Below are positions 28,687-30,782 of a stretch of DNA of 64,000 nucleotides, in pieces (position 1 is the first letter of the stretch; every line of letters starts with the position of its first letter). The DNA lies in NCBI GenBank assembly GCA_002682825.1, contig NOKP01000001.1:2855296-2919295 (forward strand), read 5' to 3'. A program made the translations under genes and the position numbers. This stretch comes from Neonectria sp. B-13 (lineage: Eukaryota; Ascomycota; Sordariomycetes; Hypocreales; Nectriaceae). Under the pieces are notes generated by a model. It had not been told where the DNA came from, did not search any database, and was given only the letters and a program-made list of their open reading frames with translations.

Positions 28687-28692
28687 AAAAAA
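28687..28692 (-). terminator. Pol III T-run after tRNA copy A
   Basis: Six T on the minus strand, starting 11 nt after the discriminator base of copy A. Confidence 0.7.
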
Positions 28693-28702
28693 TGAATTAT
28701 GC

Positions 28703-28830
28703 TAGCAATTGCACGTTTCGATCGTGCGACCTCCGGGTTATGAGCCCGGCTGATGAGAATTAGATTGAATTCGAACTGATGTATTTGGGGATGGTGAAGA
28801 CATACCGCGCTTCCACTGCGCCAAATTGCT
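28703..28830 (-). tRNA. Initiator tRNA-Met(CAT), copy A, one spliceosomal-type intron
   Basis: Exons are 28830-28806 (25 nt) and 28749-28703 (47 nt), together 72 nt. The joined sequence folds perfectly: acceptor stem AGCAATT/AATTGCT with discriminator A, D stem GCGC/GCGC, anticodon stem CCGGG/CCCGG with loop CTCATAA, and T stem GCACG/CGTGC with loop ATCGAAA. A54 and A60 and the A1-T72 pair are eukaryotic initiator marks. The 56-nt intron (28805-28750) begins GTATGT, has TCTAAT near its end and finishes CAG. It lies between tRNA positions 26 and 27, not at the usual 37/38. The variable loop AGGTC is uninterrupted here, unlike the other three copies. The A box (TGGCGCAGTGG) is intact in exon 1 and the B-box region lies in exon 2. 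Confidence 0.93.
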
Positions 28831-29345
28831 TTGATGCTGTTGAAGACTGCATCGCTGTTTCCCTTTATGGATAAAGATTTAAGGTATGTGGGGCATAGGG
28901 CTGGCAACCACACTTTCACTGGGCGAATGAACGTCTGCAGCTGAGAACACATGCTGCATCAAGGTCCTGGTGCCGGCTTGGGTAGCTGGAAATATCTTCG
29001 TGTTCATATCTGGCTTTTGATGGTATGGCGGAACAATACACCATATGCGCATCAAAATCCTTTCTGACACATGTAAATACTCGTTCATCTGCTGGCACAG
29101 AAATGCAGGGAATGTGGCAACAATGAACCCTTGGCAGGCGGCCCTCCTCGTCCAGTAACCAGATGTCACGTCGCTGAGAACATAACGTTGAAGACGAAGT
29201 TAAACCGCCTAACCCAACTCAAACATATTCGTTAGATACAATTTACTATTTCTGATCCTTGTCTCAATAACCTGAGGAAACCCAACCCTGCTCTTCACTC
29301 TGCTCGTCTGATGCCGGTCTCTCGGAGGTGGACCCTTTCAACCTG

Positions 29346-29382
29346 CTCCATGAGGGGGCGGGGTTAAACCCCCGCCATGGAG
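29346..29382. repeat. G/C-rich imperfect hairpin between tRNA copies A and B
   Basis: CTCCATG at 29346-29352 pairs with CATGGAG at 29376-29382. The inner G-run and C-run extend the pairing. It lies 70 nt upstream of copy B; function is unknown. Confidence 0.65.
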
Positions 29383-29451
29383 CCCCGCCACACAGCAACG
29401 GTCGGGTGCCAATATGAGTTAAAATACAACCAATATTTCTATCAGCAACAA

Positions 29452-29634
29452 AGCAATTTGGCGCAGTGGAAGCGCGGTATGTTTACACCATGATTCTCTA
29501 GCTGTCTCAAACCATTACTAACTATCTTCTCAGCCGGGCTCATAACCCGGAGGGTAAGCTCATCCTTCGACTCCTGACTCAGGAACGTCGACTAACAAGC
29601 AAATCAGTCGCACGATCGAAACGTGCAATTGCTA
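29452..29634 (+). tRNA. Initiator tRNA-Met(CAT), copy B, two spliceosomal-type introns
   Basis: Exons are 29452-29476, 29534-29553 and 29608-29634 (25+20+27 = 72 nt), identical in sequence to copy A once joined. Intron 1 (29477-29533, 57 nt) has donor GTATGT, a perfect TACTAAC at 29516-29522 and acceptor CAG. It splits positions 26/27. Intron 2 (29554-29607, 54 nt) has donor GTAAGC, GACTAAC and acceptor CAG, and splits the variable loop at 46/47. The anticodon loop is intact. A T7 run follows ten bases downstream. Confidence 0.93.
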
Positions 29635-29643
29635 GCACATCTC

Positions 29644-29650
29644 TTTTTTT
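29644..29650 (+). terminator. Pol III T-run after tRNA copy B
   Basis: Seven T starting ten nt after the 3' end of copy B. Confidence 0.75.
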
Positions 29651-30112
29651 GCCTTTTCTTTGGGCTTGTGCTCTTGCAATTTTGCCTTTTTAAAGACTTT
29701 GAACCTTTGAGTTCTTTCTGGAGACTACCAAGTATGACCGGTGGCATTTGTTGTTCCGCAATCGCAATCGCAATCGCAAGTCGTCAGTGAGTGAGTCACA
29801 CTCAAAGGGGTTTCGTGAGACCAATCACAGCAGACCAACCACTGCATCAGCCACAGCCTCATTCTGCATCAGCTGTGTCCGTCAAGCCGAGCTCTGCCAT
29901 TCCCTGTGTTTAGGGGCTTCCACGTCAGTATTATTAAACGTATGAATTGAATTGTAATTATCTTGGATCTGCAGCACCAGAGCGGTAAAGATGCCATGAG
30001 TTGAATGTTTCGCCCTGCCAGTCTACATCCGACGACACTTCAAAACATACTCCACAGGGCAGCCCCTCCGATGCATAAGTAGCAACAATCGCGGGTCTAT
30101 CACAAGCAACAA

Positions 30113-30294
30113 AGCAATTTGGCGCAGTGGAAGCGCGGTATGTCTACACCAGAATCCTCAAGATTCATGTTCGAACGTAACTAACTCATCCCAGCCGGGC
30201 TCATAACCCGGAGGGTAAGCACCTCCATCCACCAAGGTGTCGGAACATCAACTAACAGCAATTCAAGTCGCACGATCGAAACGTGCAATTGCTA
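30113..30294 (+). tRNA. Initiator tRNA-Met(CAT), copy C, two spliceosomal-type introns
   Basis: Exons are 30113-30137, 30195-30214 and 30268-30294; the joined 72 nt are the same as in the other copies. Intron 1 (30138-30194, 57 nt) has GTATGT, AACTAAC and CAG. Intron 2 (30215-30267, 53 nt) has GTAAGC, AACTAAC and AAG. Both sit at the same tRNA positions as in copy B. Intron sequences are related to those of copy B but clearly diverged. A T8 run follows. Confidence 0.93.
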
Positions 30295-30302
30295 GCATAT
30301 TC

Positions 30303-30310
30303 TTTTTTTT
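30303..30310 (+). terminator. Pol III T-run after tRNA copy C
   Basis: Eight T beginning nine nt after the 3' end of copy C. Confidence 0.78.
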
Positions 30311-30564
30311 GCCGGATATTTGCGTCCCCTGTCGGGAGAGAACAGGGACCTGTCTTTTTGCCATATGGGCTGGTTGTCGGACTTGAGCATCAAAAAGGTG
30401 GGAGGGAAAAGCGAATGTTGCGAAGACATTCCATCATACTCCTGGCCAGCACGATACGGGGTTGCCATCAGTCTGTCTACGCACGCAGGACTCATACATG
30501 TCACTTCCCACAGGACTTGCAAAGTTAAGAGCTAAAAAGGTGAGACCAATTTGAATAATAATGC

Positions 30565-30571
30565 AAAAAAA
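30565..30571 (-). terminator. Possible Pol III T-run after tRNA copy D
   Basis: Seven T on the minus strand, about 31 nt after the 3' end of copy D; farther than in the other copies. Confidence 0.5.
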
Positions 30572-30601
30572 GAAGGCCACCTCATAGGGTGGTGAATTGC
30601 T

Positions 30602-30782
30602 TAGCAATTGCACGTTTCGATCGTGCGACTGAAGTTGGAGTCAGTTACTGCTGATTGTTGACAGACTCGAATGTGAGACGTACCCTCCGGGTTATGAGCC
30701 CGGCTGAGGCAAGTTAGCTATGAATTCGGAATTGCTAAGAACTTTGATTGAACATACCGCGCTTCCACTGCGCCAAATTGCT
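30602..30782 (-). tRNA. Initiator tRNA-Met(CAT), copy D, two spliceosomal-type introns
   Basis: Exons are 30782-30758, 30703-30684 and 30628-30602, again the same 72 nt. Intron 1 (30757-30704, 54 nt) has GTATGT, GCTAAC and CAG. Intron 2 (30683-30629, 55 nt) has donor GTACGT, a weaker branch region (GTAACTGAC) and CAG. It converges with copy C. The 5' flank CAGCAACAA just before the tRNA is shared with copy B and nearly with A and C. The 3' flank differs from the other copies. Confidence 0.92.

Follow-up and report, generated by a model that had tools for sequence, protein, structure and literature searches.

In a 64,000-nucleotide (nt) stretch of the genome of the ascomycete Neonectria sp. 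B-13 (GenBank assembly GCA_002682825.1, contig NOKP01000001.1, positions 2,855,296 to 2,919,295; hereafter the window), four genes for the initiator methionine transfer RNA (tRNA) are interrupted by short inserts that resemble the introns of messenger RNA (mRNA). Six such initiator genes and 19 genes for other tRNAs were found in the genome, and their 51-58-nt GT-AG introns are very probably removed from RNA polymerase III (Pol III) transcripts by the spliceosome rather than the tRNA endonuclease. All sequence features tested, namely donor, branch site, acceptor and length, would class the inserts as U2-type spliceosomal introns, putatively placing such introns in a class of RNA for which the literature searched described none.

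Initiator tRNA genes in the window

The sequence-only reading from which this work started had described four loci encoding one identical 72-nt initiator tRNA, and both its coordinates and its exons were reproduced (Table 1). The exons common to genes A-D are AGCAATTTGGCGCAGTGGAAGCGCG, CCGGGCTCATAACCCGGAGG and TCGCACGATCGAAACGTGCAATTGCTA. Once joined, they are called Met(cat) with complete stems by ARAGORN and carry a CAT anticodon, an A1-T72 pair (AGC...GCTA), GGGCTCATAACCC with its GGG...CCC anticodon stem, and the T-loop ATCGAAA. This combination fits the identity rules of initiators (CAT, A1-T72, three G-C pairs at 29-31:39-41, and A54 with A60), and by all of these marks the joined exons would form an initiator tRNA. 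The same reading had each locus split at both 26/27 and 46/47 by inserts of 53-57 nt; the lengths and positions stand, as do the paired inserts of genes B, C and D (after G26 and after G46), but gene A is interrupted after G26 only and is continuous across the 46/47 site. Its account of the signals, with GTATGT, GTAAGC or GTACGT at the 5' end, CAG or AAG at the 3' end and mostly a CTAAC-type branch site, was borne out: CTAAC is present in five of the seven window introns, with CTAAT and CTGAC in the same place in the other two.

A run of six to eight T residues lies 8-30 nt downstream of each gene. ARAGORN run without introns and Rfam at gathering score found no tRNA at these loci, and neither reported anything elsewhere in the window; these genes would therefore probably escape standard annotation.

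Table 1. Initiator tRNA genes, their introns and terminator-like T runs, numbered from the first nucleotide of the window.
Feature	Position	Strand	Details
Initiator tRNA gene A	28703-28830	-	exon 1 28806-28830, intron 28750-28805, fused exons 2+3 28703-28749; without second intron
Gene A intron, 26/27, 56 nt	28750-28805	-	GTATGT..CTAAT..CAG
Gene A Pol III terminator-like T6	28687-28692	-	
Initiator tRNA gene B	29452-29634	+	exons 29452-29476, 29534-29553, 29608-29634
Gene B intron 1, 26/27, 57 nt	29477-29533	+	GTATGT..TACTAAC..CAG
Gene B intron 2, 46/47, 54 nt	29554-29607	+	GTAAGC..CTAAC..CAG
Gene B Pol III terminator-like T7	29644-29650	+	
Initiator tRNA gene C	30113-30294	+	exons 30113-30137, 30195-30214, 30268-30294
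Gene C intron 1, 26/27, 57 nt	30138-30194	+	GTATGT..CTAAC..CAG; contains box-B-like GTTCGAAC
Gene C intron 2, 46/47, 53 nt	30215-30267	+	GTAAGC..CTAAC..AAG
Gene C Pol III terminator-like T8	30303-30310	+	
Initiator tRNA gene D	30602-30782	-	exons 30758-30782, 30684-30703, 30602-30628
Gene D intron 1, 26/27, 54 nt	30704-30757	-	GTATGT..CTAAC..CAG
Gene D intron 2, 46/47, 55 nt	30629-30683	-	GTACGT..CTGAC..CAG
Gene D Pol III terminator-like T7	30565-30571	-	

Initiator genes across the genome

The genome (60.9 Mb, 123 contigs) was searched with patterns drawn from the exons. With up to a single mismatch allowed, the 18-nt exon-1 core matched seven places, comprising six tRNA genes (the four in the window and one each on contigs C40 and C94) and one coding-like sequence, while the exact exon-2 core GGGCTCATAACCC occurred at the same six places only. 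Both introns are present in each of the C40 and C94 genes, so that across the genome the first intron is found in 6/6 initiator genes and the second in 5/6. An intron-free initiator gene, for which the sequence-only reading had proposed a genome-wide check, was not found by these pattern searches, in which 28 of the 42 one-mismatch places of the exon-2 core were covered (24 by eye, and four in ARAGORN-scanned stretches that gave no match); the exon patterns yielded six split genes instead. Nor did a search with the joined 72-nt sequence return an intron-free copy, although this was a weak search that scored one candidate place and recovered one of the six known loci.

Other tRNA genes and a U6 gene carry introns of the same kind

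Further tRNA genes were sought without regard to introns, using patterns of a T-loop followed by a T-run that ignore GT-AG. These gave 102 and 106 matches, some places being counted repeatedly; from among the matches listed we took 60 stretches, mostly of ~240 nt and covering 58 places, and later 6 + 1 more. The Phe, Gly and Gln genes and many other tRNA genes came from these patterns. All eight exact anticodon-arm places of tRNA-Phe contain a GT-AG insert at 20/21 (seven distinct introns, the two on contig C56 being identical), and the three of nine one-mismatch places that were read are not tRNA. Similarly, 7/7 exact places of tRNA-Arg(ACG) have an insert at 19/20, the lone one-mismatch place not being a tRNA, and all three tRNA-Gly(TCC) genes found are interrupted at 18/19, with the boundary set by the GT-AG rule where letters could belong to either exon or intron. 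Two tRNA-Gln(TTG) genes were found in all: locus L118 has a 53-nt GT-AG intron at 33/34, within the anticodon loop, in addition to an ordinary 17-nt anticodon-loop intron, and locus L130 has the 17-nt intron only. Intron positions were numbered by hand throughout.

In total, 25 tRNA genes contain 30 GT-AG introns (29 distinct), and one U6 intron brings the distinct set to 30; 19 of the split genes belong to the four non-initiator species Phe, Arg(ACG), Gly(TCC) and Gln(TTG). ARAGORN named the joined exons Met, Phe, Arg, Gly and Gln, the last retaining its separate 17-nt anticodon-loop intron. Its drawing of the joined tRNA-Phe sequence has a G5-A68 mismatch in the acceptor stem, which is common to all eight genes (L121, L122, L140, L141, L166, L167, L170, L171).

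Two U6 genes were found. The first (L103, G000:C1:5177381-5177531) has a 55-nt intron at 5177443-5177497 (GTGAGT..CACTAAC..CAG) inside the ACAGAGA region; its Rfam match stops inside the intron and misses exon 1, and the gene was placed by hand. The second (L102, G000:C83:406820-406915) is uninterrupted. The genome therefore provides exact presence/absence pairs in U6 (L103 versus L102), in tRNA-Gln(TTG) (L118 versus L130) and, for the second intron, in the initiator genes (A versus B, C and D). By contrast, no such introns were seen in 5S ribosomal RNA (rRNA) genes, where the 47 scored matches (of 3267 candidates) were all uninterrupted 120-nt genes.

The set of split genes may be larger than this. 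A genome search with the Rfam tRNA model scored 63 of its 1967 candidates, overlooked many of the tRNA families identified subsequently, and is not a census; in the loci scanned, with the census of families incomplete, no Ile, Ala(AGC) or Lys(CTT) genes turned up, and these may be split as well or may just have been missed. Two Arg-like tRNA genes (L156 and L157, with CCG and TCG anticodons by eye) have unusually long insertions in the anticodon loop in which no GT-AG intron pattern was seen; ARAGORN names these genes differently.

Intron signals and controls

All 30 distinct introns start with GT[AG]NG, end with NAG and contain a YTRAY motif whose branch A lies 11-14 nt from the end, within a length range of 51-58 nt. 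The donors are GTATGT (11), GTAAGC (8), GTAAGT (4), GTACGT (2), GTATGC (2), GTAAGA (2) and GTGAGT (1), and the acceptors CAG (21), AAG (5) and TAG (4). Among 20,000 mononucleotide shuffles, run on the first 29 introns, none passed the full donor, branch and acceptor rule, and 4.9% of interior shuffles of the same introns satisfied the branch rule; the 11-14-nt branch window was chosen after the introns had been seen, and the shuffle figure is descriptive and not a blind test. As a reference for mRNA introns we used five in the window, placed by protein homology with GT and AG required by the script. They measure 50-61 nt, and their branch-like motifs lie 12-19 nt before the 3' end, in keeping with the claim of the sequence-only reading that the inserts have the lengths of mRNA introns from the same window.

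A second control was provided by ordinary anticodon-loop introns in the same genome, represented by 36 distinct tRNA calls minus L118, which carries both kinds. A position filter had removed seven further ARAGORN calls, wrong calls on split genes among them. The remaining 35 calls, with 33 distinct introns, contain introns of 7-47 nt with no CTAAC and a single GT-AG case, a 19-nt His intron for which a 2-nt shift was allowed. The two kinds of intron thus share a genome, and in tRNA-Gln(TTG) even a gene, but differ in location, length and signals: the split sites at 26/27, 46/47, 20/21, 19/20, 18/19 and 33/34 all lie away from the canonical 37/38 position. Nor did Rfam, at gathering score, match anything in the window to a group I or II self-splicing core. 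Introns of 51-58 nt are too short for either group.

Conserved exons, diverged introns and Pol III features

The joined exons form one sequence in 6/6 initiator, 8/8 Phe and 3/3 Gly genes and two sequences (6 + 1) in the seven Arg genes. Mean pairwise intron identity among paralogs is 0.60 for the first and 0.66 for the second initiator intron, 0.62 for Phe and 0.54 for Arg, compared to 0.98, 0.87, 0.92 and 0.90, respectively, over the 14 letters of the donor, branch and acceptor signals. Gene conversion acting on entire genes would be expected to homogenise the introns along with the exons, and the introns differ. Flanking sequences are unlike between most copies, with ~80 nt upstream in common between gene C and the C94 gene. 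A pseudogene or SINE-like (short interspersed element) origin was rejected on the identical exons of all six initiator genes set against their differing introns and most flanks, and an assembly error on the recurrence of the pattern at six separate loci and in five tRNA species.

The box A and T-loop box B sequences sit in exons, and the introns lie between the boxes or at their edge. The starts of the two boxes are 95-101 nt apart in genes with one intron and 148-156 nt apart in those with two. Of the 24 initiator, Phe, Arg and Gly genes, 21 have a T5-T8 run no more than 35 nt past the gene; the stretches of the remaining three end too early for such a run to be judged. A box-B-like TTCGA motif is over-represented in the initiator introns (window 28750-30757; L100 and L101).

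Proposed route of maturation and its alternatives

We propose that box A and box B would direct Pol III transcription of the precursor, that U1 and U2 would recognise the donor and the CTAAC branch site, and that the exons would be joined by two transesterifications and the tRNA then folded, with the ends trimmed before or after. The intron-free U6 copy would escape the circular dependence of the spliceosome on its own product, and maturation of the tRNA-Gln(TTG) from L118 would require both splicing systems. Because every initiator, Phe, Arg(ACG) and Gly(TCC) gene found has such an intron, the spliceosome would be required both to start translation and to read the codons served by these tRNAs. 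There is probably a second pathway of tRNA splicing in this fungus, in which the spliceosome matures the initiator and all tRNA-Phe, tRNA-Arg(ACG) and tRNA-Gly(TCC), tying protein start to mRNA splicing, in which one tRNA-Gln gene needs two unrelated systems in series, and in which some introns may additionally act as promoter elements for Pol III. The suggestion of the sequence-only reading that this initiator may need the spliceosome accordingly gains support, at the level of sequence, from the signals and branch spacing, the presence/absence pairs, the identical exons with diverged introns, the lack of any intron-free initiator gene among those found, and the same type of intron in four further tRNA species and U6.

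Several points weigh against spliceosomal removal. Splicing is inferred from the DNA sequence of one fungal genome, and the tRNA body might fold ahead of spliceosome action. The signals are not uniform, as three of the 30 donors (two GTAAGA and one GTGAGT) fall outside GTANG[TC] and exact CTAAC occurs in 26/30. The full rule is passed by only 2/5 of the mRNA introns versus 30/30 of the tRNA and U6 introns; of the three that fail, the first departs from the rule in both donor and branch distance, the second in branch distance and the third in its branch motif (CTAAA), and the tRNA introns therefore conform to the signals more strictly than the mRNA introns used as reference. Lastly, the lack of intron-free genes rests on pattern searches whose one-mismatch places were covered to 28/42 for initiator exon 2 and 3/9 for Phe.

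It is conceivable that the tRNA splicing endonuclease, or a less stringent version of this enzyme, cuts at these unusual positions and that the GT-AG signals are coincidental. Such a route has been proposed for the non-canonical, multi-position tRNA introns of Cyanidioschyzon merolae, and nucleomorphs have comparable introns with an unknown route of removal, according to the excerpted text of PMC4090602. The ordinary anticodon-loop introns of the Neonectria genome also imply that the endonuclease is presumably present. However, donor, branch site and acceptor at fixed spacing are common to all 30 distinct introns and not found in the 35 ordinary ones, and a rough bulge-helix-bulge pairing rule, applied with a boundary tolerance of +-1 and no folding, is passed by 14/35 ordinary introns but by 1/29 GT-AG tRNA introns. 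Because of intron position and signals, we consider endonuclease cleavage very unlikely. That the split genes are dead relics, with working initiator, Phe, Arg and Gly tRNAs made from intron-free genes absent from the assembly or too divergent to find, seems to us highly improbable. The assembly is in 123 contigs, the joined 72-nt search scored a single candidate, coverage of the one-mismatch places stands at 28/42 for exon 2 and 3/9 for Phe, and insertions in the D- or T-arm of eukaryotic tRNA genes are usually taken as signs of pseudogenes, as stated in the part of PMC4090602 consulted. Set against this, exons are identical in 6/6 initiator, 8/8 Phe, 3/3 Gly and 6/7 Arg genes while introns diverge, pointing to selection on exons and not decay; terminators are retained at the split genes; and working genes for four tRNA species would have to be missing at once.

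A different question is why spliceosomal introns would be kept. Retention of the introns for an internal promoter element that some of them hold, the box-B-like TTCGA, is a possibility to which we give a small share of belief. TTCGA, which forms the core of box B, is present in 9/29 introns, whereas shuffled introns had it 0.92 times on average (maximum 6 in 2000), and it is found in the first and second initiator introns and in those of Phe and U6; GTTCGAAAC is the box-B-like stretch in the U6 intron and GTTCGAAC occurs in two initiator introns. A 1990 paper cited in PMC10484740, going by its title, reportedly describes B-box matches within Schizosaccharomyces U6 introns. The motif is nevertheless absent from every Arg, Gly and Gln intron and present in 1/5 mRNA introns, and paralogous introns are not independent, so a promoter role for the introns would be a lead.

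Relation to known systems and significance

Spliceosomal introns exist in the rRNA genes of ascomycetes. Normal spliceosomal introns are described in a structured non-coding RNA of fungi, the U3 small nucleolar RNA (snoRNA), with paralogs that vary in intron presence as they do here (PMC5832005, in the text available), although U3 is not a tRNA and has no cloverleaf. A close parallel within Pol III transcripts is fission yeast U6, which has an mRNA-type intron that is spliced; for U6 introns, an origin by reverse splicing near the catalytic nucleotides has been proposed (both in the excerpt of PMC10484740). Fungal U6 introns are like those described here in that a short mRNA-type intron interrupts a structured Pol III RNA, this genome having one U6 gene with and one without; they differ in that U6 is a spliceosomal RNA, whereas tRNA has no such link and in several tRNA species no intron-free gene was found. 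Trichoderma belongs to the Hypocreales. A table in PMC9518982 has an entry for a Trichoderma reesei U6 promoter 'with 1st intron', suggesting, as far as this entry goes, that Pol III introns are not foreign to that order. The tRNA introns of C. merolae and of nucleomorphs are similar in occupying the D, anticodon and other arms with several per gene (excerpts of PMC4090602 and PMC9602550). They are unlike ours in that those of C. merolae are ascribed to the tRNA endonuclease and bulge-helix-bulge motifs (PMC4090602) and those of the Guillardia theta nucleomorph are 3-24 nt long with an unknown removal route; GT-AG or branch-site signals are not among the features described for either in these excerpts.

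We found no prior report of spliceosomal introns in tRNA genes in the open-access literature, among the matches listed and judged by title and the start of the abstract; most subscription papers and bioRxiv lie outside this search, and an earlier report is possible. This agrees with the sequence-only reading, which knew of no described case. A 2026 review, in the portion available, plainly calls nuclear tRNA splicing spliceosome-independent (PMC13149111). The interest of the finding is high because the proposed route would tie translation initiation to the spliceosome: if it is correct, initiation in this lineage would be directly dependent on splicing, spliceosome inhibition would have an immediate effect on protein synthesis, and the initiator gene would be overlooked by tRNA annotation programs. 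The presence/absence pairs also make intron gain directly testable in a 72-nt gene without a coding frame.

Additional observations

Searches beyond this genome gave no counterpart: patterns joining initiator, Phe or Arg exon and donor matched 0 places in viral contigs, and the plain exon-1 pattern matched 11 viral and 72 bacterial or archaeal stretches, of which three of 83 places passed a loose filter and none was like a fungal initiator. The window's NOP14 gene is 95% identical to that of Neonectria punicea, 93% to N. magnoliae, 85-86% to Ilyonectria and ~77% to Fusarium, and a GH6 glucanase has Neonectria as its first match, which places the window in a filamentous ascomycete belonging to Neonectria or close to it. 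On contigs C105, C27, C114 and C72, the positions of tRNA and 5S genes are mirrored along the contig, suggesting inverted-duplicate contigs or assembly hairpins.

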